This document shows, one piece after another, positions 11,349 to 42,458 of a stretch of 64,000 nt of DNA. The translations under genes and the position numbers were made by a program. Under the pieces are notes generated by a model. The model searched no databases. It worked only from the letters and a program-made list of their open reading frames with translations, and was not told the origin of the DNA. Source of the DNA: Rhizophagus irregularis (lineage: Eukaryota > Glomeromycota > Glomeromycetes > Glomerales > Glomeraceae); assembly GCF_026210795.1 (NCBI RefSeq), contig NC_089443.1, positions 2,790,001-2,854,000 of the forward strand, read 5' to 3'. Positions within the stretch are counted from its first letter, which is position 1. Each line of letters opens with the position of its first letter.

Positions 11349-13522
11349 ATGGGTTGCAAAATTTTAAAACATCATTTAATGTTAATTTTGTTAATTCAAT
11401 TGTTTCTTTGGGTTACATTTGTAAATGGACAATTTATACCAGGACCTCGAACAGGTCACACGGCAACTCTCATCGGAGATAAAATATATTTTATAGGAGG
11501 ATATAATTTTTCAATTAAACCTAAAGAAAGTGATGTATTTTATTATGATGGAAATAAACTAGCATGGGTAGACGTGAATAGTCAAGTTAGTGGTCAAGAT
11601 GCAGATATGCCACTTCAATTTGGACATACGGCTAATATAGGAGGACCTAAACAAGATTTGATATTTATTATAGGTGGTGACCGATTTTCAACAGTATATC
11701 AACTTGATACTAAAACAAATAAAATTATTACACCAATAATTCTGGGAGATTTTCCAACTAGGGATAACTTAATGTTTATGAGTTCTGTTAGTTATAAAGG
11801 GCTAATTTATTTGTTTGGTGGAATAGAAATAGATAAAACTGGTACTAATGTTTTTTATGATAATCATTATATTTTTGATACTATTAATTTGAATTGGAAA
11901 GAGGGTGGCCTTACTAATGTTCCTCCTCCCAGATATAAGCATACAGCAACATTAGTTGATGAAATTATATATTATATTGGTGGTATACAAATGAATAATG
12001 CTTATACTACTTCTTATGCTTCAATGTCCATTGTACGTAAGATTATAGATAATTAAAGTTATATTAAGTATGAGAGTTATATTAATAAGTTGATTTTATT
12101 ATTGTAGATTTTTCGATATAATACTATTTCAAATACATGGTCTTCAAAGGTCAGTTATAAAATTATTCTTTTTTGAATATCACGTGATATCTAATACGTT
12201 AATAACTCTAGGTAGCTACAGGAAATACTCCAGGACTTAGAGCTGGCCATTCAGCTGTTTTAGGTGATTTTCTTCTTTAAATTTAAAAATATTTTGTTTT
12301 ATTTATTTATTTAATTTTTATTTTATAGTTGAAGGCAAAATTTGTATATTTGGAGGCGTTTACCTTGATTCATCACCTACAGAATCAATTGCTATGTTGG
12401 ATACTAACAACTTAGAATGGTCAATACCATCTTTTAAAAATCCAAGGAGACCAAATATGCCAACTTTACCAAACCTAGTTTATCATACTGCCACATTAGT
12501 AGATAAGCGTATGTTCGTTGCTTTCGGTGAGTTATTTTTTTAAAATGTTTCAATGTAAATTCATCTCACGTGACTTTAATTATTATTTTATTTTAGGAAA
12601 TGATACGGATAAATCGGCTAATGCGGTTACTAGTGGATATAAAGGATTAAATACTGATTTTTATATATTTGACTTTAATAATTTTGAATGGTACATTGCA
12701 TCGGCAGATGAACTTACGAATCCATCTTCTAATATCCCAAAGTTATTTCCTTCCAGTGCAGGAATGCCATCGAGTAAATTAGCAATTATTGGTTTATCAG
12801 TTGGAATAGTGCTAAGTATATTGGCAGTAGTCGGAATATTAGTATTTGTATATTATAAACGTAAGAAAAATCAAAGTGAAGGTGATGTCGGTTATCCAGA
12901 AGATGATTCAAATATTTCTTATGATAAAATGTCATTAAGTCAACGATCAACTTTATATTCAAGTCGACCATCAATGCAATATCAATTTACAAAACAATTT
13001 ACACCAGAACAACGTATCTCAAATAATAATAATTTAACTCAGCCTCAAGATAATCTCAGTCAAGAATTTTTTATTTTACAAATTCCATCAGATGGTGATA
13101 GATTTTCTAATCATTCTTCTAATTATTATCCCGGAATTGGAACTGATCCTCATTCTCGAAGAAGTGAAGTTTCTCCACCCCCTCCCCCTTTAACTTATCC
13201 TTATTCTCAAAGAAATGAAGCTCCTCTCCCCTCTCCCCCTTCAACTGATCCTCATTCTCAAAGAAATGAAGTTCCTCTCTCCCCTCCCCCTTCAACTGAT
13301 CCTCATTCTCAAGGAAGTGAAGCTGTTCTCCCCTCTCCCCCTTCAACTGATCCTCATTCTCAAGGAAGTGAAGCTTCTCTCCCCCCTCCCCCTTCAACTG
13401 ATCCTCATTCTCAAGATTCTCAAGGAAGTGAAGCTCCTCTCTCTCCTCCCCCTTTAACTGATCCTTATTCTCAAGGAAGTGAAGCTCTTCTCCCTTCTCC
13501 CCCTCCCCCTCAGACTCCATAA
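11349..13522 (+). CDS. kelch-repeat single-pass membrane protein, gene 1
   Basis: Five exons: 11349-12032, 12108-12149, 12212-12263, 12329-12526 and 12597-13522, giving 633 residues. A signal peptide covers 1-27 (cut before QFIPGPR). Residues 28-360 form about six kelch blades: GHTATLIGDKIYFIGGYN, IFIIGGD, IYLFGGI, HTATLVDEIIYYIGGIQ, KICIFGGV and HTATLVDKRMFVAFGN. A transmembrane helix spans about 387-412 (IIGLSVGIVLSILAVVG) and is followed by the stop-transfer YYKRKK. The cytoplasmic tail of about 220 residues is Gln/Ser-rich and then carries seven 17-residue repeats of the type TDPHSQ-SE-PLPPPPS. The kelch propeller probably binds a ligand outside the cell, and the proline repeats could recruit SH3, WW or EVH1 proteins. 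That is an inference. It is the first gene of a six-gene array and nearly identical to gene 2. Confidence 0.85.
13141..13515 (+). repeat. 51-bp coding minisatellite, tail of kelch gene 1
   Basis: Seven units of about 51 bp (one has a 9-bp internal duplication), each starting ACTGATCCTCATTCTC or a close variant and ending in a C-rich run. They encode the 17-residue proline-rich tail units. Units differ by point changes in multiples consistent with purifying selection on Pro and Ser positions. The matching repeats in gene 2 differ in number. Confidence 0.85.
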
Positions 13523-14699
13523 ACTTTATAAATATTACGTAAAAACTTACTTATTATTACATTAACATGGTATAAACATTTTAAACTTCATAATAGACAA
13601 TTACTGCTTTAAGTAATCAAGCAATCTTTATAATATGATATGACATTCGTATACTGTACCTATAATTCTGTTTTCATTAATTAGTCTGTCACTTTCAAAA
13701 TATTAATTAACATTAAGTGTTTTTAATATAATAAATTACCTTTTTATATTGTATTATTTTATGGTTTATTATAATGTAAAATTTATTGTAAACGCCTCCA
13801 CAAAAATAATATACTTTATTTTGATTTACCCGTCACATTAAACTGGTGATACAATACAAAAGATATTAACTTCCGAATTGTGTAATTATTTATTATAAAG
13901 AATTTCCCGTTTAAAAAATTCCCGAAATGTTGATCGCTTCGGTCAGAAAGGAAAGGATTTCTTTTAGACAAACTCGATCATTTTAGTTGCATATCTGATA
14001 TGACTAATTATAAGCATGTGACATTAATACGACATTTTTCATGAAAAGTGAAGAAAGAACTTTTTGCTTATGCGTGCAAACATTGTGTTTTTCTAGAATT
14101 TTCGACTATTTCATTTATTTACTTTTATACTTATAGTTAATGACAATATAAAGGATAGAACTGACTTTGTACATTTGCCTGATGAATATTATCTAAAAAT
14201 ATTAAAAACACGTAGTAGTAGTTAATAATTTTCGAAAATATAGACATTACTTACTGTAATTGACGTAAATTACATTATACACATTCAATGCTCTTGAATG
14301 GAAATTTAAACTAAAGGCAATTAATAGCATCAGGAAGTTTTTAGGTGGGTCGGTCCATGTAATTCCACGTGGGTTTGCTCAGAAATACGTGGAATTCCAC
14401 ACATTCCCAATATCCTACATGGATCCACACCGAATTTTGTGGACTTATGCCGAAAATACCACGTGTTTCGTCACAGGGTATTCGGAAAATACTGGAACTG
14501 TTAGATTCCACATATTTCCACAGTATTTGATGTGGATTTCTGTGGATTTTAAACGGAAAAAAATTCCTGATGAGATTGGATACCAAATAATCCTAAAAAG
14601 CGATTCATGAACAAGCAATTATATGCGGAAAGAATGAAAAAATCAATCAAATGAAAAAAATAGTCAATTGAAATTAATTTCAATCAAGTATCTTAACTT
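13523..14699. other. 3' flank of kelch gene 1; duplicated then unique spacer
   Basis: To 14294 this is the downstream part of the duplicated segment. From about 14340 to 14560 there is a GC-richer stretch rich in GTGGA/TCCAC words, including the palindrome GTGGAATTCCAC. It resembles a degraded inverted-repeat element, but I could not define its ends. Confidence 0.35.
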
Positions 14700-15573
14700 T
14701 TAAATACCCTCGTTCATCAGTTCCGTCTTTCTATCTCCATTAATTTTATCTGGGTCGGGATTATTGGGACCTTCTGACATCTCAAGCAAAAATAACGGGA
14801 TTTGCCCTATAAAAAATTTTTATCCGAATATTTCCATTATTTCTCCGTGTCTTCCGTAAAAATTCCGTGAAAATGATACATTCACGGATATCCGTGTTAG
14901 CGAGATGAAAATTTCCATATAAATTCCATGAAAATGATACATTCACGGAACGGATCAGATTTTTTACAGGGAATTGCCTTGGTCGCTCAAAAAACTCTAA
15001 GACACCATCAGCTTTATACCCGTTATCTTGAGCATCGACCTTGGTAGAAATGTCTCGTTCACATGAGAAATATCGTAATGAGTTGATAAAGCAAAATGTA
15101 ACAAAAAACAGATACGCTATTACGTGAGCTGTCACACGTGCGTTCGGGAGTATTCAGTTCCTCATAATACCATTCATTTTTGTGATTAGTTGTATCAAGG
15201 TGACTAGAGACGCTCTTAATAACAAAAATATCGGGCATTTCTGATTGATCATAACTCTCTACTGGCATAGGAAAGGTGTTAGATAGATAATGAAGTTTTG
15301 TCTAATTGATGAACTTTCCCCTTCATTTTTGCAAACTCTTCGCTGTCTTTTTCATCGGTTATGTCTTTATTTTCACCTTCTATATCACCATCGTCACAAC
15401 TCTATCTTTTCCTCAATAATCTCATGAAACAGTGACATATACTTATGCGCCTCCGCACTTACATATTCATCCTCATCCGTCAATCTTGACCTTTCAAACA
15501 AAGAATTCAATTCATAGTTGCTCAAAAGTTCGTGAACCTGATTTAGTGTTTTTTCATCTCCCAAATCAATAAT
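14700..15573 (-). pseudogene. fragmented gene, KADGVLEFF-type family
   Basis: Minus-strand coding pieces read, in order, YYIIDLGDEKTLNQVHELL, then FERSRLTDEDEYVSAEAHK, PDIFVIKSVSSHLDT, TKVDAQDNGYKADGVLEFF, and MSEGPNNPDPDKINGDRKT. The frame changes between pieces and there are stop codons. The miniature element at 14807-14969 interrupts the stretch between ERPRQ and the MSEGPN piece, and another element (15582-16119) truncates the 5' end. The KADGV-EFF signature followed by an acidic/Leu-Glu strand is familiar to me from multicopy Rhizophagus proteins and faintly resembles a nuclease core, but I would not assign a function. Confidence 0.45.
14807..14969. mobile_element. 163-bp MITE with 9-bp target duplication
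   Basis: The ends CTATAAAAAAT and ATTTTTTACAG form an imperfect terminal inverted repeat. The flanks GGATTTGCC (14798-14806) and GGAATTGCC (14970-14978) are a 9-bp duplication with one mismatch, as Mutator-like elements make. An internal repeat CCGTGAAAATGATACATTC occurs twice. Removing the element restores continuous reading across the host pseudogene, which supports the boundaries. Confidence 0.7.
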
Positions 15574-15581
15574 ATAATATG

Positions 15582-16119
15582 GGTAACCGGACTTTTCGCC
15601 GATGTTCTTTTCACCGAAACCCATTTCGCCGAGGCAATTTCGCCGAAGGGATATTTCACCGAAGTAACATTTCGCCGAAAGCCGTTTTCCAAGTAGACAT
15701 TTCGCTGAATGACCATTTACCGAAACCATTTCACCGAAGCCATTTCACCGGGACATTTCGCCGAAATTGTGAAATTTTTTAATTTTTCTTTTTCTTGAGA
15801 AGACAAACGAATTATTTAATACAGTATATTAAGTCACGTTTATTTTAATAAAAAAGATAACAAAATCATCATAAAATGAAATGAAATATTTTAGAGAGAA
15901 TTTGTACTTTGAGCATTTTTTATTTTCTTTGTATCGAATTGTTAATGATCAAGGAAATGTTTATCTGTTATATGTTAATCATTAACATTTTCTGCGAAAT
16001 GTCCTTCGACGAAATGTCCATTCGATGACATCACATTCGGTGAAATATTTCTTCAGCGAAACTTCACTTCGGCGAAATGGTTTTCGGCAAAATGAAATTC
16101 GGCGAAACGTACCGTAACC
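15582..16119. mobile_element. 538-bp MULE-like MITE with TTCGCCGAA arrays
   Basis: The ends GGTAACCGG and CCGTAACC are inverted. The flanks TATAATATG (15573-15581 and 16120-16128) are an exact 9-bp direct repeat. Both subterminal regions consist of degenerate tandem copies of ATTTCGCCGAA-type words: 14 or so in the left 200 bp and about 8 in the right 110 bp, in inverted orientation. The centre of about 210 bp is plain AT-rich sequence. No transposase is encoded. The repeats produce spurious FGE/RRN-rich ORFs on both strands. The 9-bp duplication points to a Mutator-type transposase acting in trans. Confidence 0.8.
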
Positions 16120-16125
16120 TATAAT

Positions 16126-16716
16126 ATGATGCGCACGGTCTAAAGCCACCACTTTTTTATTTTTTGGCCAAATTTTATAAAATCACGTGAGCAAAATTTC
16201 ATTGGTCAATATTTACTAATCATGGGTTTGTAGAATAGAATACCAATTGTTTTAGCCAGAATTAATATTAATTCTGGCTAAAATGATTTATAAAATTCAT
16301 ATTATCAGAAAGAATCTGTTATTTTATTATATTTAAAATTGTGATATCCATCAAATCTTTTCTATATTCATTAAGAATAATAAACATATATTTAATTTGT
16401 TCTCATTCGGTTATTTTAAACAAAAATATTTTTATATTAATTCTTAATTAATTAATTTAAGCCAGTTTATAAATTTTGGCCTGCATTAAATTAGTGTTAA
16501 ACTGGCCACTCCGAATTTATTCAAAACATAGTAAAATAACCAAAATTAAAACTTATATATCTTATGCTACAATAATTCAATTTGAAAAACCCTCTGTTAC
16601 ATAAAAGTATACTGTTTAATTACAGAAAGTTTTTTAAAAAATATTGATTAAATTTTTTTTACTATTCATTTGAAATCACATGATAAAAAGTGATGGCTTT
16701 AGACTGTTTGCACCAT
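16126..16716. mobile_element. 591-bp terminal-inverted-repeat element
   Basis: The left end ATGATGCGCACGGTCTAAAG matches the reverse complement of the right end (CTTTAGACTG, TTTGCACCAT) with few mismatches over about 27 bp. Internally there is a second inverted pair, AGCCAGAATTAATATT / AATATTAATTCTGGCT near 16256-16283. The interior has no ORF. The right end abuts the beginning of duplication copy 2. Confidence 0.65.
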
Positions 16717-17407
16717 AAAAACCGGCCGAAACCGAAATAAATCATGTATAAATGCATTTATTTATATACTATATAGTAGTACCAAAGATTATTATATAAA
16801 ATTGAATTATTGTAAAGTAGAATTTATCTTGTTCTCTTAATCTCATTTTCCAAACATCTTTTCAAAAAGGAGATCTGTCTTGAAATAGGAGGCATTTTCC
16901 ATTAAAAGATCCGAAACCTTAAAAATTTGATACCTTGTGCTTTATTTAATCTTTGAGTAATTTTAATAAAAGTTCAACCGAATACATAAAACAATGCAAT
17001 ACATCGCTTTTTTGAAAATACTAAGGAAAAAGAATATTTTTTCTCTAGAAGTAGCCCTGAAACAGTTTTCATTAATTTCAAAATGAAAATAATGTTTTTG
17101 AAAAAAGAGAGCTATTACATTAAATACTGTAATGATTTAGAACATTTTTACCAAAGCTGGAATGAAAATATTAAGAAGAATCCTGGAAGTTTAAAAAAAT
17201 ACATCAATTTTAATATAAATTTATTAACTGTTAATTAACAATTATAAATGTCTATCGATAATGTTTTTGTAATATTACCATACATAGTTATCTTCGGGAA
17301 GTGTATGATTTGTAGATCGGATAAACATATAAGAGATATCCGAAGTAAATTCCAAAAAAAAATAACAATTATTTATTCTTAACCATATCAGATTTCTGTT
17401 TGATTAG

Positions 17408-17869
17408 TATGGAAAGCCGTCCTTGACAAAAGGTTGATATCCAGACATCATGTTGGATAATGTCTAGACATCATGTTTGATATATGTAGAATAATGTTTG
17501 TACATCATTCAACATGATGCTCTATGGAAAGCCGTCCTTGACAAAAGGTTGATATCCAGACATCATGTTGGATAATGTCTAGACATCATGTTTGATATAT
17601 GTAGGATGATGTTTGTACATCATTCAACATGATGCTCAAGCATCAACCGACATGATGTCTTAGACATCATGTTACCAAATATAGTAAATTTTATTTTGTG
17701 TAACTCATAAATATACTATATTTGGTAATTTGATCAGCATGATGTCTAGACATCATGTCGGTTGATGTCTTTCACATCATGTTAAAACATAGACATACCA
17801 TCATGATGTCTAAATATTATATTTCATGATGTTTGGACATCAACCTTTTGTCAAGGACGGCTTTCCATA
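17408..17869. mobile_element. 462-bp MITE in kelch gene 2 upstream region
   Basis: Terminal inverted repeats run TATGGAAAGCCGTCCTTGAC and its complement over more than 40 bp. The flanking GATTAG (17402-17407 and 17870-17875) is a 6-bp direct repeat, and duplication copy 1 shows the near-empty site (TTTGATTAAACTC). The first 115 bp is tandemly duplicated inside the element. The interior is built of palindromic CATGATGTCTAGACATCATG-type words. It lies 250-750 bp before the ATG of gene 2 and so may alter that gene's promoter relative to gene 1. Confidence 0.85.
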
Positions 17870-18119
17870 GATTAGACTCTAACGGATAGCCAAAATAAGT
17901 AATATCAAAATATGATTTTTTTTAGGTTTTGTGTTACCTAAAATAAATGATAACAAATCAAATATCAAATTACAAATTTATTGTTTATTTTCATGCAAGC
18001 CATTTGAGCTTGGCACCGAACAAATGTCCCTTTATCGAATTGCGCCGGATGTACAAATTCTCCCTTTCTCTGTAATTCATAAATCCATAAAAATGGATGA
18101 TTCATTTTTCAGGATTTTC

Positions 18120-18144
18120 AACCCTTTTTCTAGAAAAAAAGGTT
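18120..18144 (+). promoter_or_regulatory. leader inverted repeat upstream of kelch gene 2
   Basis: Identical to the element before gene 1 and the same 23 bp from the ATG. Conservation here is expected from the recent duplication and is not independent evidence. Confidence 0.35.
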
Positions 18145-18166
18145 AAAGGAATATACTTAATCAAAA

Positions 18167-20260
18167 ATGGGTTGCAAAAATTTAAAACATCATTTAATGT
18201 TAATTTTATTAATTCAATTGTTTCTTTGGGTTACATTTGTAAATGGGCAATTTATACCAGGACCTCGAGTAGGTCACACGGCAACTCTCATCGGAGATAA
18301 AATATATTTTATAGGAGGATATAATTTTACAACTCCTAAAGAAAGTGATATATTTTATTATAATGGAATAGCATGGGTAGAATTGAATAATCAAGTTAGT
18401 GGTCAAGGTGCAGATATGCCACCTAAACTTGGACATACAGCTAATGTAGGAGGACGTAATCAAGATTTGATATTTATTATAGGAGGTGATGACGAATTTT
18501 CGAAAGTATATCAACTTGATACTAAGACAAATAATGTTACTTTACCAACAATTCTGGGAATTATTCCAAATAAGGATAGCTTAGTATTTATGAGTTCTGT
18601 TAGTTATAAAGGGAAAATTTATTTGTTTGGTGGAGGAAAAATTGAAGCTGATATAATTACTTTGTATAATAATCATTATATTTTTAATACTAATAATTCG
18701 AATTGGGAAGATGGTAGCTTAGTTGGTGCTCCTCCAGCCAGATATAAGCATACAGCAACATTAGTTAATGAAATGATATATTATATTGGTGGTATACAAA
18801 TAAATAATTCTTATGTTTCTTATACTTTAATGTCCGATGTACGTAAGATTATTATAGATAATTAAAGTTATATAAAATATGAGAATTATATTAATAAGTT
18901 GATTTTATTATTGTAGATTTATCAATATAATACTATCTCAAATACATGGTCTTTAGAGGTTAGTTAATTAAAATCATTTTTTTTTTTAATATTACATGGT
19001 ATCTAATACGTTAATAACTCTAGGTAGCTACGTTAGCTCCAGGAGATACTCCAGGACGTAGAGCTGGCCATTCAGCTGTTTTAGGTGATTTTTTCTTTAA
19101 ATTTAAAAATATTTTGTTTTATTTATTTATTTATTTATTTATTATTTATTTTATAGTTGAAGACAAAATTTGTATATTTGGAGGCGCTTACTTTGATTCA
19201 ACACCTACAGAATCAATCGCTATGTTGGATACCAACACTTTAGAATGGTCAATACCACATTTTAAAAATCCTGAGAGACCAAATATGCCAACTTTACCAA
19301 ACCTAGTTTATCATACTGCCACATTAGTAGATAAGCGTATGTTAGTTGCTTTCGGTGAGTTATTTTTTTAAAATGTTTCAATGTAAATTCATCTCATGTG
19401 ACTTTAATTATTATTTTATTTTAGGAAATGATACGGATATTGTTGTTAATGGAGGATATAAAGGATTAAATAATAATTTTTATATATTTGACTTTAATAA
19501 TAATGAATGGTACATTACAACAGCAGATGAACTTACGAATCCATCTTCTAATATTCCAAAGTTATTTTCTTTCAGCAGTAGTGCAGGAATATCATCGAAT
19601 AAACCACTAACTATTGCTTTATTATCAGTTGGAATAATACTAGGTGTAGCAATAGTCGGAACAGTAATATTTGTATATTATAAACGTAAGAAAAATCAAA
19701 GTAAAGAAGATGTCGGTTATTCGGCAGATGATTCAAATATTTCTTATGATAAATTTTCATTCAGTCAACGATCAACTTTATATTCAAGCCAACCATCAAT
19801 GCAATATCAATCTACATATCAACAATTTACACCAGAACAATGTATCTCAAATATTAATAATTTAACTCAGCCTCAAGGAAATCTTGGTCAAGAATATTTT
19901 ATTTTACCAATTCCATCAGATGGTGATAGATTTTCTAATCATTCTTCTAATTATTATCCCGGAATCGGAACTGATCCTTATTCTCAAAGAAGTGAAGTTT
20001 CTTCACCCCCTCCCCCTTCAACTGAAGTTTCTCCACCCCTTCCCCCTTCAACTGATCCTCATTCTCGAAGAAGTGAAGTTTCTCCACCCCCTCCCCCTTC
20101 AACTGATCCTCATTCTCAAAGAAGTGAAGTTTCTCCACCCCCTCCCCCTTCAACCGATCCTCATTCTCAAAGAAATGAAGCTCCTCCTCTCCCCACTCCC
20201 CCTTCAACTGATCCTCATTCTCAAGGAAGTGAAGCTCTTCTCTCCCCCAAGACTCCATAA
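18167..20260 (+). CDS. kelch-repeat single-pass membrane protein, gene 2
   Basis: Five exons: 18167-18838, 18917-18958, 19024-19084, 19157-19354 and 19425-20260, giving 602 residues. The signal peptide covers 1-27. Kelch blades include GHTATLIGDKIYFIGGYN, LIFIIGGDDEF, IYLFGGGK, HTATLVNEMIYYIGGIQ, KICIFGGAYFD and HTATLVDKRMLVAFGN. The transmembrane helix is near 386-410 and is followed by YYKRKK. The tail of about 190 residues ends with 17-residue units SPPPPPSTDPHSQRSEV, fewer than in gene 1. It arose by the 4-kb duplication that also made gene 1. The third exon is 9 bp longer (VATLAPGDTP against VATGNTP). The gene appears intact. Confidence 0.85.
19969..20250 (+). repeat. 51-bp coding minisatellite, tail of kelch gene 2
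   Basis: About five full units plus one shortened unit encoding TDPHSQRSEVSPPPPPS-type repeats. They are homologous to 13141-13515, with a different number and order, showing that the tail length evolves by unit gain and loss. Confidence 0.8.
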
Positions 20261-21062
20261 ACTTTATAAATATTACGTAAAAACTTACTTATTACATTAA
20301 CATGGTATAAACATATTAAACTCCATAATAGACAATTACTGCTTTAAGTAATCAAGCAATCTTTATAATATGATATGACATTCGTATACTGTAACTATAA
20401 TTCTGTTTTCATTAATTGGTCTGTCACTTTCAAAATACTATTAACTAACATTAAACGTTTTTAATATAATACATTACCTTTTTATATTGTATTTTTTATA
20501 GTTCATTACAGTGTAAAATTTTATTGTAAGATAACTTCACAAAAAATAATATACTTCATTTTGATTTACTCGTCACATTAAACTGGTGGTACGATACAAA
20601 AGATATTAACTTCCAAATTGTGTAATTATTTATTATAAAGAATTTCCCATTTTTAAAAATTCCCGAAATGTTGATCGCTTCGGTCAGAAATGAAAGAATT
20701 TCTTTTAGACAACTCGATCATTTCAGTTGCATATCTGATATGAATTATAAGCATGTGACATTAATACGACATTTTTCATGAAAAGTGAAGAAAGAAATTT
20801 TTGCTTATGCGTGCAAACACTGTATTTTTCAAGAATTGTTCGGCTATTTCGCCTTTTTCATTTATTTACTTTTTTTATTTATAGTTGGTGATAATATAGA
20901 AGATAGAATTAACTTTGTACAGTACATTTGCCTACAGTGAATATTATCTAAAAATATTAAAAATAAGAATTAGTAGTAGTTAATACTTTTCGAAAAATAT
21001 TCTTGATCTTGAGACATTACTCAATTAACGTAAATTACACGATCATACACATTCAAAGCTCT

Positions 21063-22650: not shown

Positions 22651-22686
22651 AACTTTTTTTCTTTTTTTTTTTGAAAAAAAAGAGTT
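22651..22686 (+). promoter_or_regulatory. leader inverted repeat upstream of kelch gene 3
   Basis: AACT-T-tract followed by an A-tract-GAGTT, ending 24 bp before the ATG. The bases differ from genes 1/2, but the arrangement is the same. Confidence 0.35.
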
Positions 22687-22709
22687 AAAAAAGTATATTT
22701 TTAACGAAA

Positions 22710-24643
22710 ATGGGTTACAAAATTTTAAATCATCATTTGATGTTAATTTTATTAATACAATTGTTACTTTGGGTTACAATTATAAATGGACAATTTATGC
22801 CAGGACCTCGAATAGGTCACACAGTAAATATGGTTTTAGGTAAAATATATGTTATAGGAGGATACAATTTCTCTGCTTCTATACCTCAAATAAGTGATGC
22901 ATTTTATTTGAGTGGAGATCCATTAATATGGACAGATTTAAATAGTCAAGGTGCAAATATTCCATTTAAATTTGGACATACAGCTAATGTAGGAGGACCT
23001 AATCAAGATTTGATATTTATAATAGGTGGTGGTCCAAGTATGAATTCAGTATATCAATTTGATATTAAAACAAATAAATTAAGTGTGATAGGAAATGCTC
23101 CAGAACCAAATCGGGCATTTATGAGTTCCGTTATTAATGGAGGAAAAATCTATTTATTTGGTGGAAACGATTTTAGTAATCCAGATACATTTTTTAATGA
23201 TCTATATATTTTTGATACTACTAGTTTGAATTGGGCAGCTGGTAGCCTAATTAATGCTCCTCCTCCCACAAATAAGCTTACAGCAACATTAGTTAATGGA
23301 ATTATATATTATATTGGTGGTATGCAAATGAATAATCTTCACACTCCAATGACCGACGTAAGATATTATATAATTATGTTATTATGTTATTCACTCATTC
23401 ATAAGTATGAGTATATTAATAAGTTTAATTTCTTATCATAGATTTACCAATATGACACTGTCACGAATATATGGTCTTTAAAGGTAAGTCAAAAAATAAT
23501 ACTGCCTTTTTAGAATATCACGTGGTATTTAATTAGTTAATAATTCTAGATAGCCACGTTGGCTCTGGGAGGTGGGCCAGGACCTAGATTTGGCCATACG
23601 GCTGTTTTAGGTGATTTATTCTTTAAATTTTAAACTTTTTTTGTTTATTTTATTTACTTGATTTTTTTATTTATCATTATAGTTGGTGGCAAAATTTGTA
23701 TATTTGGAGGAATTTACCTTAATTTTCAATCACCTAATGAACCAATCGCCACGCTAGATGTTTTCACTTTACAATGGTCAATACCACAATTTAAAAATCC
23801 CAGTTTACCGAATTTACCAAACCTTGTTTATCATACTGCCACACAAATACAGAATCTTATGTTCGTCGCTTTCGGTAAGTTATGAATACAGTATCTTCAA
23901 CATAATTTTATCTCACATGGCTTTAATTTTATTTTATTTTAGGAAATGACACAAAGATACCGACAGATGGATTTAACGGATTAAATAATAATTTTTATTT
24001 ATTCGACTTTGATAAACTTCAATGGTCTATAATACCACCAACAGCATTTGTTCAATCTAATCCTAGTTCCAATCCTAGTCCCAATCCTAGTACTAATCCT
24101 AGTACTAATCCTAGTCCTACTAAGACTACTAGTTCTGGTGCACCAACGTTTACACTTCCAACAAAATCAACAGTTACTCCAACAATTCTTCCCACAATCG
24201 AAGAACAAGCTTCGAATAAACCAGTAATTGTTGGTTTATCAGTTGGAATAGTACTAGTTGGATCAGCAGCGATCGGAGCATTAATATTTGTATTTTATAG
24301 ACGTAAGAAAAGAAAAGAATTCGATGATACAAGTACTTCTAATGGTCAAATTCCATTCAATCAATTCGATCAACGATCAAGTTTATATCCAAATCAACAA
24401 CAGTATGCACCAGATCAATTTCCAAATCAATATCAACAATTTACGCCACAACAACGTATCTCAAATTTTAATAATTTATCTCAACCTCAAGAATATTCCG
24501 GTCAAGATTCTATTTTACAAATTCCATCAGATGGAGAGGATAGATTTTCCAATCATACTTCAAATTATTATCCGGGAAGTGAAACTTATCCTTATACTCA
24601 AGGAAGTGAAATTCCTCCACCACCACCACCAAAGACTCCATAA
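22710..24643 (+). CDS. kelch-repeat single-pass membrane protein, gene 3
   Basis: Five exons: 22710-23357, 23442-23483, 23550-23610, 23683-23874 and 23943-24643, giving 547 residues. The last exon contains no usable ATG, so a simple ORF scan misses it. The signal peptide covers 1-27. Kelch blades include GHTVNMVLGKIYVIGGYN, LIFIIGGG, IYLFGGND, TATLVNGIIYYIGGMQ, KICIFGGIYLN and HTATQIQNLMFVAFGN. Between the propeller and the membrane is a stalk of NPSS/NPSP/NPST repeats (residues about 354-373), a likely O-glycosylated spacer. The transmembrane helix is near 408-433 and is followed by YRRKKRK. The Gln-rich tail ends SEIPPPPPPKTP, without the 17-residue units of genes 1 and 2. Confidence 0.85.
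24061..24119 (+). repeat. 12-bp repeat encoding NPS(S/P/T) stalk
   Basis: Five consecutive 12-bp units AATCCTAGTNCN encode Asn-Pro-Ser-X just outside the membrane helix of kelch gene 3. The other paralogues have unrepeated Ser/Thr/Pro-rich sequence at this place. Confidence 0.7.
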
Positions 24644-25924: not shown

Positions 25925-26060
25925 ATTAGAAGTAGCAGTCGGAGCATTGATATTTCGGTCGTCAGGATGATCTGATGGTCAAATTCAATACATAAATAAC
26001 AATTTTATTAGGTAAAAAAAAAATAAAAAGAGATATATTACCGTAATCAATTCAATCAAT
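25925..26060 (+). pseudogene. relic of a kelch gene, membrane helix and tail
   Basis: The bases reading VAVGALIF match the transmembrane region of gene 3 (AAIGALIF). They are followed after a gap by a trace of GATGAT and TGGTCAAATTC and by a CAATTCAATCAATTC repeat, all also in the gene 3 tail. The fragment has stops and gaps. A similar scrap (GAGTCGCATTAATATTAG) occurs at 30370-30412. Confidence 0.4.
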
Positions 26061-26310
26061 TCAAAGTAAAAAAATTAGACTAAAAAGAAGTGCATAATTA
26101 TGTTATGTAATTTTAAGTGAATCTTTGCATAATCTTATATTTGAAAAATCCAGAATTCGGAAAATTCGATGCTATTATTATCCCATTTTGATTCTTTCTT
26201 TCTTATACCAAATAGTAAAAAAAGAGGCCAAAATAATAATAATAATAATATAATTCAAATGATATTATTTAATATTTATTATATATATATTAAGTCATTA
26301 ATATAGTTGT

Positions 26311-26420
26311 GACAGTAACTCGAGTGGGATATAAGAATTATATTTTATAGGATATAATTCTAATAAAGGATTAGAACTTATAAGTGACTTTATGAAGCAG
26401 GAAAGAAACAATACGAATTT
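26311..26420 (+). pseudogene. relic of a kelch gene, N-terminal blade
   Basis: AACTCGAGTGGG, AATTATATTTTATAGG and AACTTATAAGTGAC align with the first-blade region of gene 4 (27360-27460), with internal deletions that break the frame. In reading form: TRVG, KLYFIG, YN, GLELISDF. This is a dead seventh member of the array. Confidence 0.6.
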
Positions 26421-26603
26421 GCCAGGGGTGCATCAACAAATGTAGTCATCACAATCATATCAATTTATGGATTCATAACGTAGACAATGAACGTATCTGA
26501 AAGCTGAAATTATTATACCTCTAGGATATATTCTAGTCAATTAATATGCTACGTACTAAGTCCTTAAATGATCTAATTATTACTTCTCATTTAATTGAGT
26601 AGA

Positions 26604-26769
26604 TGATGGTAAATCAGCGTCACGCATAAGAGCCATGCTTAAACCTCCCCCAGCACTATCACCAGAAATTAAAATATTTTTGGATTTAAAGGTTCAAATC
26701 CCGCATCTTGTGGAGGATTTAAGAGATACAAATAAAGCAGCCAATGCATCTTGTAGTCCGGCGTCAAAG
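26604..26769 (-). pseudogene. fragment of HSL-type alpha/beta hydrolase
   Basis: The minus strand encodes FDAGLQDALAALFVSL, then in another frame LNPPQDAGFEPLNP, then in a third NILISGDSAGGGLSMALMR. GDSAGGG is the nucleophile elbow of the hormone-sensitive-lipase/esterase family. Two frameshifts within 160 bp and the lack of flanking domain sequence show that it is a dead fragment. Confidence 0.65.
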
Positions 26770-27212
26770 ATTATATATTAGAAATTTTATTACCCTACAA
26801 TTATTAATTCGTTGTTATTGATTTTGTGATTTATTATAATATAGTACAAAAAATAATTATAAATGTATAAATATTGTTAATACTAATTTTAAATCGATCA
26901 TTTTTTTTTCCTCCCGAAAATTTTATAAAAAATAAAAAAGGGATAATCCGTGTTTTGCAAATAGATAAATTACAAAGGATAAAAAATTTCCTTTTTAGTC
27001 CTTATGAAATGATCGGCTAAAAAATTTTGGGACAAAGCCGATTATTTGTTGTAAAAAATCTCGGGTATATTCTTTATATTTATTATATTAAAACGCCCCG
27101 AAATTAACACGACATTTAACACGAACGAGAAGTAGAGAAAAATCTCTTTAATTGTACAAATATTCCTAATTTAATTAAAAGTGGGTATTTTCCTTTTTTT
27201 TTCAAGATTTTT

Positions 27213-27239
27213 AACTTTTTTTTTTCAAAAAAAAAAGTT
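27213..27239 (+). promoter_or_regulatory. leader inverted repeat upstream of kelch gene 4
   Basis: AACT-tract, C, A-tract-GTT, ending 32 bp before the ATG at 27272. Confidence 0.35.
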
Positions 27240-27271
27240 AAAAAAATCTAAATTAAAAAAAAAAATTCAAA

Positions 27272-29165
27272 ATGATGTTCAAAAATCATTTTATATTTAT
27301 TATACTAAGTCACTTAATGTTTTTAATGAATATAGTAAATATAAATGGCCAATTTATACCAGGAGCTCGAGTGGGTCAAAAAGCGGTTCTCATTGGAAAA
27401 AAATTATATTTTACAGGAGGACGTAATTTTGACAAGGAAACAGGACTTATAAGTGACCTTTTTTATTATGATTTTGGAGCAGGATTAAGCGATGCGAAAT
27501 TGGTAGATCTAAGAAGTCAGGAAGGAATAAAAATGAACTTACCATACATGATATGGCACACAGCTAATATAGGAGGCACTAATCAAGACTCAATATTTAT
27601 GTTAGGAGGTTTAGGAACTGTAGAGTCAAGTAATAATTTAGTATATCAATTTGATACAAATACCAATGCAACAAGTATGCCAATAATTCAAGGAATAACT
27701 CCACCAAGACGTGAAGATATGGATACTGTTAGTTACGGAGGGAAAATTTACATATTTAGTGGACGAATGGAAGGTGTTAATGATGAAATATATTATGATA
27801 ATTTTGATATTTTGGATACTGTTAACTTGGTTTGGAATGTCGGTAGTCCAGTAAATGCTCCTCTTCCTAGATTCCTTTATACGGCAACGTTAGTTAATGG
27901 AGTTATTTATTATATTGGTGGTGTACGAAAGAGTGCAGTTAGTAATATAAGTTATAGTGTTTTAATGTCCAACGTAAGTAATCTTATAATTAATTAGTTA
28001 TAAAAGTTATAAAAGCGAGAAGTATATTAATGAAATTTATTATAATAGATTTACCTATACGATATTGCCACAAATACATGGTCTCTTAAGGTCAGTTAAG
28101 TTAATTTTGATAAACCGACAGGCGTTCACAAGAATTCAGCTAAAAAAAAAATAATATTAAATTTAGGAAATTACAGTAGGAAATATCCCAGAACCCAGGT
28201 TTGGTCACTCAGCTGTCTTAGGTAGGTTTATTTATTTTTATTCTTTAAATCATACAATTTGATTTTAATTTAATTGATTTTTCTTCAATAGTTGGTGACA
28301 AAATTTGCATATACGGAGGATTAAATCCTAATGGTGTAGTTGACGCTCCTGCAATGCCAACAATTGCTCTATTGGATACTAATACTTTTATATGGTCAAC
28401 GCCCCAACTTGAAAATATTAATACACCAAAACTTATTGATAATAATGTACCAAACCTTCTTTATCATACTGCTACATTAATATATGACAACCTAATGTTT
28501 GTCACTTTCGGTAAGTTATTTAATCTGTCTTATTCTTTCACTTTTCAAAATCACTAACGTGATTTGTTTATTTATTTATTTTAGGAAATCTCACTGCTTA
28601 TTCTCTGCCGCGAACGATCAACAGATACTATTATATATTTAATTTTGGACAACCAAAAGTTCAATGGTTTAGAATTGAACAAAATGATATAGGAAATCCC
28701 AACGCTAACATTCCTATCAATCCTAAAACTCCTAATTCTATTACTCCTAAGACTCCACCTTCTACTACTAGTTCCGGAAATGCAGCAAATACATCAGCAA
28801 AATCAACAGCAGCACCTGCAACTTCTAGTTCAGATCAAAAATCTTTAGGAAATCCAGTAATCATTGGTTTATCAATCGGATTGGCGGCAATTGGATTAGG
28901 AACAATTGTAGCATTTTCATTAATTTATAGAAATTCGAAAAAAAATCAAAATTCTGCAACGGGAGGAGCTTCAGGTGCCTTGGACACTTCTACTGGCAGT
29001 GTTATGCTTCAAATTCCAAGTAATTTACAACATTCTCCTACTCCCGCTTTACATAGATATTCTCCTGGGCAAGAATATTATTCTTCTTTACCATTATCAC
29101 AACAAGAAAGGTATTCTCAACGTTCTTCAAATTATTCTCCAGGAAGTGAAACTCCACCTATTTAA
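27272..29165 (+). CDS. kelch-repeat single-pass membrane protein, gene 4
   Basis: Five exons: 27272-27973, 28049-28090, 28167-28221, 28292-28510 and 28585-29165, giving 532 residues. The signal peptide covers about 1-26 (cut near NING-QFIPG). Blades include GQKAVLIGKKLYFTGGRN, HTANIGG with IFMLGGLG, KIYIFSGRM, YTATLVNGVIYYIGGV, KICIYGGLN and HTATLIYDNLMFVTFGN. A Ser/Thr/Pro-rich stalk covers about 383-425. The transmembrane helix is about 430-454 (VIIGLSIGLAAIGLGTIVAF). The tail is short, about 78 residues, with YSPGQEYYSSLPLSQQERYSQ and no proline minisatellite. It is close to gene 5 in all exons and introns. Confidence 0.85.
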
Positions 29166-29532
29166 ACCATTCCAATATGTTTCCTTATATATACAGTATA
29201 TTTAAAATAATATTGCTTTATGAAATAGATTTATGATATCAGATTATGGGGTAAATATCGTGTCACCCCGTATTTGTTAAAAATTTCATGAAATCAATTT
29301 TTCGGATTATAATGTTAATGGTGATATTGTAGATGTTATTTTCGAATTAATTTAGAATAAGATGACAATTAAAGTTGCATACATAATTTTTAGCATTTTT
29401 AGTTACCAATGCAATGAAAACAACTATAAATGAAACAAGTAGTAATACAAAATATATTTTTACAATTGCCAAATATAATTTGTAATAAATCTCAATTTTC
29501 TCGACTACTAATCATTGATTTCTTGCAATACG
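29166..29532. other. 3' flank of kelch gene 4
   Basis: AT-rich flank similar to the flank after gene 5 (32822-33140, sharing ACAGTATATTTAAAATAATATTG). It is part of a second, older duplication that produced genes 4 and 5. Confidence 0.5.
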
Positions 29533-29586
29533 AAGGTTGATGTCCAAACATCATATATCGTCTTATGTCAAGGGTGACCTTCCATA
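29533..29586. repeat. short derivative of the TATGGAAAG MITE family
   Basis: AAGGTTGATGTCCAAACATCAT followed by TCAAGGGTGACCTTCCATA matches the two ends of the element at 17408-17869, with the interior gone and the left terminus lost. Confidence 0.55.
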
Positions 29587-29773
29587 CAAAAAAAAGTTCC
29601 TAATGATACTAAGTCTGACGAAAGGATGAAACTACAACGAATCATTTTATTTTACTGTCTAATGTACGTAAACTAGCTGTAACGTGAATCCAAGAATAAA
29701 ATTTACACAAAAAAAAAAATTTTTTTCTGATTATGTCAAAGATAATTTACAATCCGTAAATCTATAATGCCGG

Positions 29774-29820
29774 TATCACCGAACTGCGAAACAGTTCGAC
29801 CTCGCAGTTCGGCGGTGATA
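29774..29820. repeat. 47-bp hairpin-forming inverted repeat
   Basis: TATCACCGAACTGCG is followed after 14 bp by CGCAGTTCGGCGGTGATA. The arms pair over 15 bp apart from a 3-base bulge. The GC content is clearly higher than the surroundings. It is probably a tiny foldback element, but no target duplication was seen. Confidence 0.5.
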
Positions 29821-30086
29821 TTCTAAAATAACTGTTATTATGCAGTCGTCTAAGATTCATATAAATCAATAAAGCTATTTAGTTAGCATAATAAACTTGT
29901 AAATTTTAATATAAATGATATTTAATCTAAATGAGGTAATGCGTCTGTACCTTAGTCTAAAAATATCAGTAAAAAACCTATTTGGCTGCATAATAGATAA
30001 ATGTATGTTTTCCCCTTCAACATTCACGTAACTTTAATTATTAGAAACAGTACGAATTTGCCAGGCGTCAACAAATGTAGTAAATA

Positions 30087-30334
30087 CCTATAAAAAAGTA
30101 GATACGTTTTTTATATTGAAAGATACGTTTTGTATACGACTAGATACGTTTTGAGATGCGGAAAAATGCACAATTCCGTATCTTATATGATACGTTTTTT
30201 CAGTGTCCCCGTATATAAAACGTGTCTTGCAAGATACGGAATTGTGCATTTTTCCGTATCTCAAAACGTATATCTAGACCAGTATACAAAACGTATCTTT
30301 CGGTATAAAAAAACGTATCTACTTTTTTTATAGG
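30087..30334. mobile_element. 248-bp palindromic MITE
   Basis: Nearly complete palindrome with ends CCTATAAAAAAGTAGATACG and its complement. The interior consists of repeated GATACGTTTT words and a GATACGGAATTGTGCA-type centre. A spurious 67-codon ORF crosses it. No coding capacity. Confidence 0.75.
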
Positions 30335-30908
30335 GATAATTTTTAATTGAAATAGCGATAGTAACAATAGTCAGAGTCGCATTAATATTAGTAATAATTC
30401 GGTCGTCCGGACTAATATACAACTTAACAAATTCATCAAGTCCTTAAATTTTTACTAATCCTACAATTATTTATTTGGTATGTAGTACAAAGAAAATTTT
30501 AAATATACAAATATTGTTAATACTAATTTTAAATCGAACCAAAAAACTTTTATAAAAAAAAGAAAGGAAAGAAAAGTCCGTATTTTATATGTTTTATAAA
30601 AAGCTAATCATATTAAATAGATATTGTTGCTTGATTTGTTGACAAGAATCACAAGATAAATTACAAAGGAAAAAAATTTCCTTATAAAAGATTTCCCATG
30701 TCGATCATCTCGGTCAGAACAAAACCGGTCATTATTGCTGTAAATATTTCTGATTTTTAAATATAAATTAATATAAATTATTATATTAATACATACGAAA
30801 TTAACACGACATTTAAATATGAATGAAAAGAAGGGTAAATTTCTTTGATGTACAAAATATTCCTAATTCAATTTAAAAATAGGTGATGTTTCCTTTTTTT
30901 TCAATTTT

Positions 30909-30939
30909 AACTTTTTTTTTTTCATAAAAAAATAAGGTT
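30909..30939 (+). promoter_or_regulatory. leader inverted repeat upstream of kelch gene 5
   Basis: AACT-tract, CAT, A-tract-AAGGTT, ending 49 bp before the ATG at 30989. Confidence 0.3.
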
Positions 30940-30988
30940 GAAAAAAATTTAAAATTTAAATTAAAAAAAAAAGAAAAAGAAAATCAAA

Positions 30989-32821
30989 ATGATATTCAAA
31001 GATCATTTTATACTTATTATATTAAGTCACTTATTTTTTTTAATGAATATAGTTGTAAATATAAATGGGCAATTTATTCCAGGAACTCGAACAGGTCATG
31101 ATGCGGTTTTAATTGGAAAAAAATTATATTTTATAGGAGGACATAATTATAACAAGGAAACAGAACTTATAAGTGATTTTTTTTATTATGATCTTGAAGC
31201 AGGATTAAGCGATGCGAAATTGGTAGATCTAAGAAGTCAGAAAGGGATAAACTTACCATATATGATTTGGCACACTGCTAATATAGGAGGCGCTAATCAA
31301 GACTCAATATTTATGATAGGAGGTGTAGGAACCGTAGAGTTAAGTAACAATTTAGTATATCGATTTGATACAAGGACCAATACAACAAGTATACCAATTA
31401 TTCAGGGAAATATTCCGCCAAGACGTAGAAACACAGACTCTGTTAGTTACGGAGGGAAAATTTACATATTTGGTGGACTAATGAAAGATGTTAATAATAA
31501 TATAATATATTATAATAATTTTGATATTTTGGATACTGTTAACTTGGTTTGGAATGTAGGTAATCCAGTAAATGCACCACTTCCTAGATACTATTATACG
31601 GCAACTTTAGTTAATGGAGTTATTTATTATATCGGTGGTTCACGAAAGAGTTCAGTTACTAGTAATATAAGGGCTAATGTTTTAATGTCCAGCGTAAGTA
31701 ATCTTATAATTAATTAATAAAGCGAGATGTATATTAATGAGTTTAATTAATTTATTATAATAGATTTATCTATACGATATTGCCACAAATACATGGTCTT
31801 TTAGGGTTAGTTAAGTTAATTTTGATAAACCTCGCGTTCATAAGGATTCTGCTAAAAAAATATTATTACATTTAGAAAGTAATAGCAGGAGATATTCCAG
31901 AATCCAGGACTGGTCATTCAGCTGTCTTAAGTAAGTTTTATTTGTTTTTATTCTTTTAAATCGACCGATTTAATTTTAATTTTTTTTAATTATATGTTTT
32001 ATAGTTGGCAACAAAATTTGCATATATGGAGGAGTACATAATGCCATCACGGTTTTAATTTCTGCAACACCAACAATTGCTTTATTTGATACTAGTACTT
32101 TTATATGGTCAACACCCCAACTTGAAAATATCAATACACCAAAACTTATTGATACTAATATACCAAAACTTGCTTATCATACTGCTACATTAATAGATAA
32201 TATAATGTTTGTCGCTTTTGGTAAGTTATTTTATTCTATTTGTCTTTTTCAATGTCACTTACGTGATTTTATTTATTTCATCTAGGAAATTTCACTGATT
32301 CTACGCCACGAGTGGTTAATAGAAACTATTATATATTTAATTTTGGACAACCAAATATTCAATGGTTTAGGCTTGCACAAAATGATATGGGAAACCCCAA
32401 TGCTAACATTCCTAACATTCTTAACACTCCTAATCCTGTTTCTAATTCCGGAAATGTAACAAAATCAACAACATCTACAACAGATCAACAATCTTCTTCA
32501 GGAAATCCAGTTATCATTGGCCTATCAACGGGATTGGCGGTAATTGGATTAGGAACAATTGTAGCATTTACATTAATTTATAGACGTAAAAAAAATCAAA
32601 ATTCTGCAACGGGAGGAGAAATTGATTCTTTAAGTGCCTCTACTAGTGGTGTTACACTTCAAATTCCACCTGATACTCAACATTCTCCTACTCCTACTTT
32701 AGCTCAATCTCAAGGATATTCTCCTGGTCAAGAATATTCTACTTTACCATTATCACAACAAGAAAGATTTTCCAAAGATACTTCAAATTATTTTCCAGGA
32801 AGTGAAACTCTACCTTCTTAA
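30989..32821 (+). CDS. kelch-repeat single-pass membrane protein, gene 5
   Basis: Five exons: 30989-31693, 31764-31805, 31876-31930, 32005-32220 and 32286-32821, giving 517 residues. The signal peptide covers about 1-27. Blades include GHDAVLIGKKLYFIGGHN, SIFMIGGVG, KIYIFGGLM, YTATLVNGVIYYIGG, KICIYGGVH and HTATLIDNIMFVAFGN. The stalk is Asn/Ser/Thr-rich. The transmembrane helix is about 413-438, ending LIYRRKK. The tail is about 78 residues, with YSPGQEYSTLPLSQQERFSK. It is the sister of gene 4. At the exon 3/4 junction the codon is ATT (Ile), where the other genes have Val, because exon 3 ends in A rather than G. Confidence 0.85.
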
Positions 32822-33406
32822 ATTATTCCAATATGTTATATACAGTATATTTAAAATAATATTGTTTTATAAAATAGATTTATATGAATTTTAATATATA
32901 ATATCAGAATTATATCTTTTGTAATAATAATTTTTTCGGATTACAATGTTAATAGTGATATTATAGAATTAATTTAGAATAAGATTGACAATTAAAGTTA
33001 CATAATGCATACATAATTTTTAATAATTTTTAGCTACCAATGTAAAGAAAAGTACTATAAATTGAAACAAGTAGTAATACAAAAATATATATTTACAATT
33101 GCCATACAAGTATTTGATCTCCAAATATAATTTGTAATACATTTCTACTACTAATCATAATTCGTTAATTGATTGTTTGCAACACGAAATATTTAAATTT
33201 AGTATCATTTTTTTTTTGATTATCCAATTAATTTTTTATGCGATTCAAAAAAAAAAAAATATGAAATCGACAGATTGTTACATTATCACACAAAAAGAAG
33301 TTTGGATACACAAATTCTCCTCGACTTATAATAAAAGCGATCCTTTTCTTTTTTTTTTTAAGGTTTATCCAATTTCATATTTCTTTATTAAATTCGTCTT
33401 ATCAAA
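32822..33406. other. spacer between kelch genes 5 and 6
   Basis: AT-rich. The 5' part resembles the flank after gene 4. A T-tract flanked by CCTT and AAGG at 33342-33363 sits where the leader inverted repeat occurs in the other genes, but it lacks the A-tract arm. Confidence 0.4.
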
Positions 33407-34989
33407 ATGTTATGTAAAATGATCATATTTACTATATTATTATTTCTTTTGTCTCTTAAAGATGTACATGGACAAGTATTTGTACCAAAACCACGAATAG
33501 GACAGACGGCAACTCTCGTTGAAAATAAAATATATTTTATAGGAGGTCTTAATAGTGCTTTAGAGACCACGAATGACATTTTTTATTATGATTTTGAAAC
33601 AGGTTTAAATAGTACAGGATGGGCAGATGTACAAAGTCAAGGAATGAATTTACCAACAATAAGTTGGCATGCAGCCAATATAGGAAAATTCGCTTATGAT
33701 AAAGATTCAATATATATTATAGGAGGTGTAAGAGAAGTACTAGATTTAGTATATAAATTTGATACTGAAACAAATACATTAAAAGTACCAACAATCCGAG
33801 GAGAAATACCACCGAGACGTATGGGAATGAGTACTATTAGATATAAAGAGAACGTTTATATATTTAGTGGAGGAATGGAAAATAATGGAATTACTATCTT
33901 TTTTAATAATTTTGATGTTTTGAACACTATTGATTTAGTTTGGAAAGTTGGTAATCTTGTAAATGCTCCTCCTCCTAGATTCTTTTATGCAGCAACATTA
34001 GTTTATACTGTTATTTATTATATTGGTGGTTTAGAACAGAATGGATTGATTCAAGTTTATAGTCCAATGACAAATGTACGTAATACTTGATATTTTATTT
34101 AACCAACATTAATAGTTTTTAATTTATTATTATTTACTGTATTTATAGATTTACCAATATGATATTATCGGAAATACATGGTCTTTAAAGGTTCAATATT
34201 GTATAATATATATGTCATAATAATTTTAAACTAAAATATATAGTAATTTTCTAGGTAGCTACGGCAATAGGAAATATTCCGGGTTCTAGAACTGGTCATT
34301 CAGCTGTCTTTGGTAAAAATATTTTTTTTGTTCTTTTATTTAATTAAAAATTAATTATTATTCTTATTAGTTATATATATATATATGTGATATTTTATCT
34401 CATCTCATTTATTTTATATAGTTGAAGACAAAATTTGCATATATGGAGGAAAGTATAATATGCAGGAACCAATGCCAGTTGCAGAACAAATTGCTTTATT
34501 AGATACTACTACTTTAACATGGTCAATACCGCAGCTTGAAAATACTAATATACCGAAACTTGATAATACGGATATACCAAAACTCGTTTATCATAGTGCT
34601 ACATTAATAGATAAGCTTATGTTTATCGCTTTCGGTAATAAAATTAATTTTTGGTTAAGTTTGTTAAGTTCCATAAATTAATTTCGAATGATATTTTTGT
34701 AGGAAATCTCACAGATACGCAAGTGTTGAATAATAATTATTATGTATTTGATTTAAGTACAAACCCAAACATTCAATGGTCAAAGTTAACAACAGATGGC
34801 ACAGGAAATCCTAAAAGTCCAGCAGTTATGACAACAAAACCTAAAATGCAACTTCCAACGTCAAATGATCAAGGAACTTCAAATAAAATTGTAATGATTA
34901 GTTTATTAATCGGTTTGGCTGTGATTGTGTTAGCAATAGTTGTATTATTTGCATTAATTTATAGACGTATGAAACAAAATCAAAAGTGA
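33407..34989 (+). CDS. kelch-repeat single-pass membrane protein, gene 6 (almost tailless)
   Basis: Five exons: 33407-34075, 34149-34190, 34255-34312, 34422-34634 and 34703-34989, giving 422 residues. The signal peptide covers about 1-22 (cut near DVHG-QVFVPK). Blades include GQTATLVENKIYFIGGLN, SIYIIGGVR, NVYIFSGGM, YAATLVYTVIYYIGGL, KICIYGGKY and HSATLIDKLMFIAFGN. The transmembrane helix is about 388-414 and is followed by only YRRMKQNQK, so the cytoplasmic tail present in the other five genes is missing. Downstream sequence still contains YSP-like and QQYVP-like words in broken frames (35021-35113), suggesting tail loss by a premature stop. It is the most diverged member of the array. Confidence 0.8.
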
Positions 34990-42438: not shown

Positions 42439-42458
42439 TGTTATTAAATGTTATTTTC

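Follow-up and report, generated by a model that had tools for sequence, protein, structure and literature searches.

The question raised by a 64,000-nucleotide stretch of the Rhizophagus irregularis genome (contig NC_089443.1, here C15, positions 2790001-2854000, the whole of which is termed the window) is what purpose is served by a run of closely related genes that each code for a kelch-repeat protein with a signal peptide and one membrane helix. Six such genes, g1 to g6, occupy window positions 11349-34989 on the forward strand. Judged from sequence, these genes and their relatives elsewhere in the assembly probably represent a repertoire, shaped by gene birth and death, of six-bladed kelch proteins displayed outside the cell on a membrane anchor and serving as surface recognition receptors or adhesins. 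What is new here is the positive selection detected by codon models in the relatives clustered on contigs C7 and C32, with the selected sites located mainly in the BC and DA loops of the propeller.

A search of the 146,748,485-base assembly (32 contigs) with exon 1 of g3 gives 107 matches. Three contigs of this assembly, C9, C15 and C18, have round lengths (5,260,000, 4,940,000 and 4,290,000 bases) that look as though they had been truncated. Eighty fetched stretches together with the window, drawn from these matches and from a family search with the better matches mostly taken first, were modelled as 89 loci; neither weaker matches nor the long kelch genes that occupy a single frame on C12, C31 and C5 are part of this sample. 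A complete architecture, defined as a modelled start, a signal peptide, an alignment over the whole propeller, a membrane helix and a stop, is present in 72 of the 89 loci, and these are spread over 17 contigs. Topology was assigned by hydropathy rules and not by a trained topology predictor, with a signal-peptide cut of 1.7 for this count (1.8 in the stalk-composition run). The inner side carries the more positive charge in 67 of the 72 complete members, and the family-wide prediction is that of a type I membrane protein. The 17 incomplete loci comprise u1 and u3 upstream of the window, L019, L007, L017, L023, L029, L031, L033, L042, L044, L063, L071, L074, L075, L076 and L079, some of which may fail through poor models: L023 exceeds its fetched stretch, L031 and L075 have no modelled ATG, and L074 falls narrowly under the signal-peptide cut. 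A FastTree phylogeny was computed from 67 proteins truncated behind the helix. In it the C15 array forms one clade (support 0.88) that joins members from C18, C1 and C21 at 1.0. A further clade with support 1.0 consists of seven C32 members, and another, again at 1.0, unites 10 of the 15 C7 members with one C8 gene and one C11 gene. As the clusters mostly form clades, the expansion appears to be mainly local. Six exons are found in 25 of the complete members, two in two C27 members and one in L080. This single-exon relative (L080:297-2627, reverse strand) codes for 776 residues with a signal peptide, a kelch propeller, a helix and a 386-residue tail, and may be either the ancestral form or a retrocopy.

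The predicted extracellular domain matches the kelch propellers. Whole-protein Pfam scans of g1 and g4, with matches followed to an E-value of 0.01, return kelch and related propeller models only, led by PF24681 (185.1 bits and 1.5e-54 for g1, 152.2 bits and 1.7e-44 for g4, cut-off 50 bits), and the Beta-prop_ATRN-LZTR1 model also lies above its cut-off. In g1, double glycines at residues 50, 109, 157, 211 and 268 and a degenerate FG at 325-326, with a spacing of 48-59 residues, define six kelch repeats, and because the six are regularly spaced we infer that the propeller closes. The AlphaFold prediction for exon 1 alone (228 residues, six sequences; mean predicted local distance difference test score, pLDDT, of 68; predicted template modelling score, pTM, of 0.66) consists of an N-terminal helix, three four-stranded blades and the beginning of a fourth, a partial fold that resembles the closed propellers of KLHDC3, LZTR1, plant specifier proteins and Keap1. 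Searching with a profile built from the six ectodomains also retrieves KLHDC3 (7.9e-28). The scans of g1 and g4 contain neither BTB nor BACK domains, nor any match to CUB, EGF, lectin or PSI domains or to the Rax2 family. Kinase domains were likewise not matched in g1 and g4, in L080 or in the terminal exons of g1, g3 and g4. Membership of the receptor kinases, BTB adaptors, attractins or Rax2 proteins was rejected on these scans.

Codon site models (M0, M1a, M2a, M8a and M8) were fitted to four author-chosen sets consisting of six of the 11 copies in the C15 cluster, seven C7 genes with one from C8, seven C32 genes (L031 included, although it fails the complete-architecture rule) and five C18 genes with one from C1. 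The C18, C32 and C7 sets may contain a few stalk residues because they were cut by residue number. Twice the log-likelihood difference (2dlnL) between M1a and M2a over the propeller region is 51.8 for C7, 48.4 for C32, 21.5 for C15 and 9.6 for C18, and masking, by which all columns three or fewer from a gap are removed, leaves 40.1 for C7, 19.3 for C32 and 8.2 for C15. The masked observed value is reached by none of the M1a simulations in C7 (0 of 19), C32 (0 of 20) or C15 (0 of 47), where 60 simulations had been planned for C15 and 20 for C7, one failed C7 fit possibly having been dropped. When each alignment was split in three and a separate tree was used for every segment, the summed 2dlnL is 74.6 for C7, 61.7 for C32 and 16.9 for C15, and on masked segments it is 43.9 for C7 and 30.0 for C32. 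The C32 segment results are used as sums without site lists because masked segments 2 and 3 and unmasked segment 3 flagged many sites. These tests establish positive selection statistically in C7 and C32.

When the four sets are pooled and the strands are placed by a register fixed on g1, the sites selected with a posterior of more than 0.75 gather in the BC and DA loops. Before masking, 33 of 509 loop positions are selected versus 4 of 739 elsewhere (Fisher 7e-10), and after masking 21 of 323 versus 11 of 647 (Fisher 1.4e-4), in tests that treat sites as independent and leave out positions without a category (2, 3, 3 and 16 over the four sets unmasked, 1 in C7 masked). The counts also retain the sites beyond these loops, which number 4 of 37 before masking and 11 of 32 after it. 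On the opposite face, the AB and CD turns contain one selected site in 145 positions unmasked and one in 123 masked (pooled p versus BC/DA 0.0018 and 0.0067). The masked loop enrichment holds within C7 (p 0.003) and C32 (p 0.017) taken singly, and mean omega in the strands is 0.31-0.61 over the four sets. Several selected residues are placed one or two positions past an arginine, in the stretch directly before strand A, and the ligand-contacting serines of Keap1 occupy the same place. The Keap1 substrate face is built from DA and BC loops (PMC4668279, in excerpt) and that of KLHL20 is formed alike (PMC6720452, in excerpt), suggesting by analogy that the BC/DA face of the fungal propellers binds ligand.

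Between propeller and membrane lies a stalk in which serine, threonine, asparagine and proline reach a median fraction of 0.49 across the 45 residues preceding the helix (62 loci). The tails past the helix range from 1 to 386 residues among the complete members. M0 omega is 0.36 in the tail versus 0.53 in the ectodomain for g1, g2, g3 and the upstream copy u2, 0.27 versus 0.41 for g3, g4 and g5, and 0.28 versus 0.29 for six genes of the C7 set, the C8 gene among them; the tail values of 0.27-0.36 are point estimates with no formal test against 1. No Pfam match above cut-off indicates a known domain fused in the tail in the last exons of g1, g3 and g4 or in the L080 tail. By eye, the C15 tails are proline-rich, several tails of C7 and C19 loci (e.g. 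L018, L013, L047 and L032) finish in heptad-like repeats that suggest coiled coils, and the C7 tails carry a repeated YHGQEI...NHEP motif.

Taken as a surface repertoire, the family would operate as follows. The signal peptide would export the propeller, the stalk would raise it through the wall and the single helix would anchor it, an arrangement predicted for the family as a whole, while the BC and DA loops would form a single partner-binding face. Tandem duplication and segment exchange between neighbours, indicated by the tree and the recombination tests, could generate new combinations. The long tails, which appear conserved at the protein level, probably dock cytoplasmic partners, and short-tailed members may be anchors, co-receptors or decoys. 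Possible ligands are plant surface molecules, other hyphae and soil microbes. A more far-reaching proposal, put forward tentatively and with less than even confidence, is that the repertoire tells partners apart (host roots, compatible hyphae, microbes), its specificity residing in the BC/DA face, which positive selection and the exchange of segments inside clusters would keep renewing.

A number of points weigh against this reading. The site models were programmed by us instead of being run in PAML, their branch proportions were taken over unchanged from M0, and fitting by Nelder-Mead is approximate (one segment gave -0.11). Recombination, which can inflate selection tests, is signalled in all three sets tested with a pairwise incompatibility statistic of the pairwise homoplasy index (PHI) type (0 of 300 permutations in C15 and in C32, p 0.01 in C7), and it is strong in C15, where nearest neighbours switch along the genes. 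The masked segment-wise gain in C15 is just 4.4 over three segments, and the masked 2dlnL of C18 is a non-significant 1.8. Masked loop enrichment gives p 0.17 in C15 and p 0.33 in C18, and 5 of the 10 masked C18 site calls fall in strands. Long indel-rich loops also evolve faster in any propeller. Fewer than 30 residues follow the helix in 23 of the 72 complete members, which leaves little for signalling and makes a signalling tail doubtful for many of them. Because recombination is the main threat, and in light of the masked and segment-wise outcomes, selection is claimed for C7 and C32, is regarded as suggestive and inseparable from recombination in the C15 array of the window, and is not claimed for C18. 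The original prediction envisaged a surface recognition family and proposed a test of blade-surface residues for positive selection. The predicted type I topology of 72 of the 89 loci and a propeller diversified mainly on one face agree with the first part; the test is positive for C7 and C32, suggestive but confounded by recombination in C15 and not significant in C18 after masking.

Part of this evidence would suit a neutral expansion, by which a duplication-prone genome retains numerous near-redundant copies, loops drift under relaxed constraint, and alignment error and recombination among the copies mimic selection. Broken copies occur (u1, u3, L044, L071 and L079), recombination is present in each of C15, C32 and C7, the C15 and C18 signals dwindle to the values just given, and high-copy families are typical of the R. 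irregularis genome (PMC8647823, in excerpt). However, the C7 and C32 signal survives masking, simulation and separate trees, the turns of the opposite face are without it, and omega is held below 0.4 in the tails and to the range given above in the strands, so that we regard neutral expansion as distinctly improbable. A second possibility, which we consider unlikely although worth keeping in view, is that the proteins are cell-wall adhesins or wall-stress sensors resembling Wsc and Mid2 (a head on a mannosylated stalk, with one helix and a short tail) that bind glycans of the fungus's own wall, copy number then reflecting dosage and genome expansion and not diversity of recognition. The stalk composition and the many short tails suit an anchored wall protein, but a ligand in the fungus's own wall would give no reason for the binding face to be positively selected, as seen in C7 and C32, and the omega of the long tails is well under 1.

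Two further functions are compatible with parts of the architecture. Rax2 and Axl2 of yeast have an extracellular head and one helix, and landmarks of this kind, which mark growth sites or cell ends from the membrane, share the topology of the kelch proteins; the proline-rich tails of g1-g3 could, from their motifs, bind SH3 or WW domains or profilin. Polarity landmarks are, however, usually single-copy and not present by the dozen, and Pfam assigns g1 and g4 to kelch and propeller families instead of Rax2, making this role very improbable. The proteins might otherwise be anchored enzymes on a kelch propeller, such as copper-radical oxidases or epimerases; the Kelch_3 and Kelch_4 Pfam models are described as the central domain of galactose oxidase, while the NANM epimerase model is barely over its cut-off in g1 (46.5 versus 45 bits). 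Copper-radical oxidases possess a Tyr-Cys cofactor and copper ligands. In the six window genes each ectodomain has one cysteine after the signal peptide, located in a KICIFGG or KICIYGG strand, while the NANM match in g1 extends over just 73 of the 350 profile positions and that in g4 is under the cut-off. We regard an anchored oxidase or epimerase as scarcely credible. The surface recognition or adhesin reading is the one retained for the window genes described below.

The six genes were assembled as spliced models by hand from the sequence, and coordinates are those of the window. Gene g1 (11349-13522, forward strand as are all six) has exons 11349-12032, 12108-12149, 12212-12263, 12329-12526 and 12597-13522 and codes for 633 residues comprising the signal peptide, kelch propeller, stalk, helix (~12794-12850) and a proline-rich tail of 223 residues. 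Gene g2 (18167-20260; exons 18167-18838, 18917-18958, 19024-19084, 19157-19354 and 19425-20260; 602 residues) has its helix at ~19619-19675 and a 194-residue tail. In g3 (22710-24643; exons 22710-23357, 23442-23483, 23550-23610, 23683-23874 and 23943-24643; 547 residues) a long stalk rich in the same four residues precedes the helix at ~24236-24292 and a tail of 116 residues. Genes g4 (27272-29165; exons 27272-27973, 28049-28090, 28167-28221, 28292-28510 and 28585-29165; 532 residues; helix ~28857-28913) and g5 (30989-32821; exons 30989-31693, 31764-31805, 31876-31930, 32005-32220 and 32286-32821; 517 residues; helix ~32510-32566) have tails of 83 and 84 residues. Gene g6 (33407-34989; exons 33407-34075, 34149-34190, 34255-34312, 34422-34634 and 34703-34989; 422 residues) has its helix at ~34903-34959 with just 9 residues C-terminal to it.

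All six consist of five exons with splice phases 0,0,1,1, GT-AG borders at all 24 introns and a second exon of 42 bp, and Kyte-Doolittle profiles show an N-terminal hydrophobic segment and a single helix toward the C terminus followed by basic residues in each, in addition to the kelch repeats and the stalk. The array limits of 11349 and 34989, the shared plan and the identical exon 2 and phases had all been read correctly beforehand, and the cytoplasmic tail expected in all six is present in g1-g5 (83-223 residues) and reduced to 9 residues in g6. A purpose-written spliced aligner recovered the models of g1 and g6 exactly, these being the only two tested and the profile having included both proteins. 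The 42-bp exon was rejected as a hallmark of the array, being common to 49 of the 72 complete family members.

The window truncates a larger cluster. Eleven of the 107 exon-1 matches form one same-strand run of ~56 kb (C15:2769242-2824072), of which five copies, u1 to u5, lie outside the window just upstream, their exon-1 matches starting at C15:2769242, 2772241, 2775237, 2779084 and 2781813. The earlier view of a six-gene array as a special unit gives way to that of the window's portion of an 11-copy cluster within a genome-wide family. The propellers of u1 and u3, the first and third of the 11 copies, are disrupted. The tails of u3, u4 and u5 terminate at one common point, and tail-like sequence runs on beyond the stop codons (L001/L002, C15:2775237-2783609), which can be read as a tail loss spread through duplication or conversion.

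The window also contains other genes. Pieces of an ion-channel gene lie at 5016-8651 on the forward strand, with an Ion_trans (PF00520) match within 7096-7953 that is TRP-like by reading and a repeat-rich, coiled-coil-like stretch behind the channel part; 32 TRPV-like genes are given as enriched at the Mucoromycota rank (PMC10234402, in excerpt). On the reverse strand, an HMG-box protein (41662-42450) matches PF00505 just above the cut-off, and an F-box-like protein (48944-50173) is likewise just above its cut-off with leucine-rich repeat matches just below theirs.

The kelch expansion mentioned in the original prediction is borne out in the literature, where kelch-like genes are listed among the expanded high-copy families of R. 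irregularis, families whose genes are at times arranged in tandem arrays and have been proposed to act in perception (PMC8647823 and PMC11075540, in excerpt). Kelch proteins are also reported in the core predicted secreted set of R. irregularis and Gigaspora rosea (PMC5293756, in excerpt). Membrane anchoring or one-face selection of the R. irregularis kelch genes was not found described in the accessible parts of the open-licence literature, and an earlier description elsewhere is possible. A search of the open-licence literature likewise gave no description of a kelch beta-propeller as a transmembrane fungal receptor, and among the matches listed there was none of surface receptors for partner discrimination by arbuscular mycorrhizal fungi. 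The word kelch is absent from the main texts of PMC11035146, PMC10234402, PMC10197012 and PMC4617103, and denotes a housekeeping gene only in PMC12457093, BTB-kelch only in PMC3886924 and an author name only in PMC6303338. With a defined family in which the likely binding residues are marked, the question of partner discrimination becomes directly testable.

Among known systems, the nearest solved relatives by profile and fold are Keap1, KLHL20 and KLHDC2-3, which share the double-glycine kelch repeats and the BC/DA ligand face. These are cytosolic substrate adaptors of ubiquitin ligases, whereas the window proteins have a signal peptide and a membrane helix, and the BTB and BACK domains of BTB-kelch adaptors were not found in g1 or g4. 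Attractin and MEGF8 of animals resemble the family in having an extracellular kelch propeller on a single-pass protein, in line with the Beta-prop_ATRN-LZTR1 matches, but carry CUB, EGF, lectin and PSI domains alongside the propeller that g1 and g4 lack, and it is in R. irregularis that a multi-copy tandem family is seen. The yeast Wsc and Mid2 proteins have a comparable layout of head, serine/threonine-rich stalk, one helix, basic juxtamembrane region and short tail, but their head is not a propeller and their copies are few. The promastigote surface antigens of Leishmania are functionally similar though unrelated, in that positive selection and recombination have diversified these repeat-containing surface proteins (PMC2584048, in excerpt); they differ in that they are built from leucine-rich repeats, without kelch, and belong to a parasite. 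If the proposed reading is true, the family would be a fungal functional counterpart of the leucine-rich repeat or immunoglobulin recognition families and a molecular candidate for the way in which arbuscular mycorrhizal fungi recognise partners or non-self, and would represent an unusual bulk extracellular use of the kelch propeller, whose most familiar role is to select targets for ubiquitin in the cytosol.

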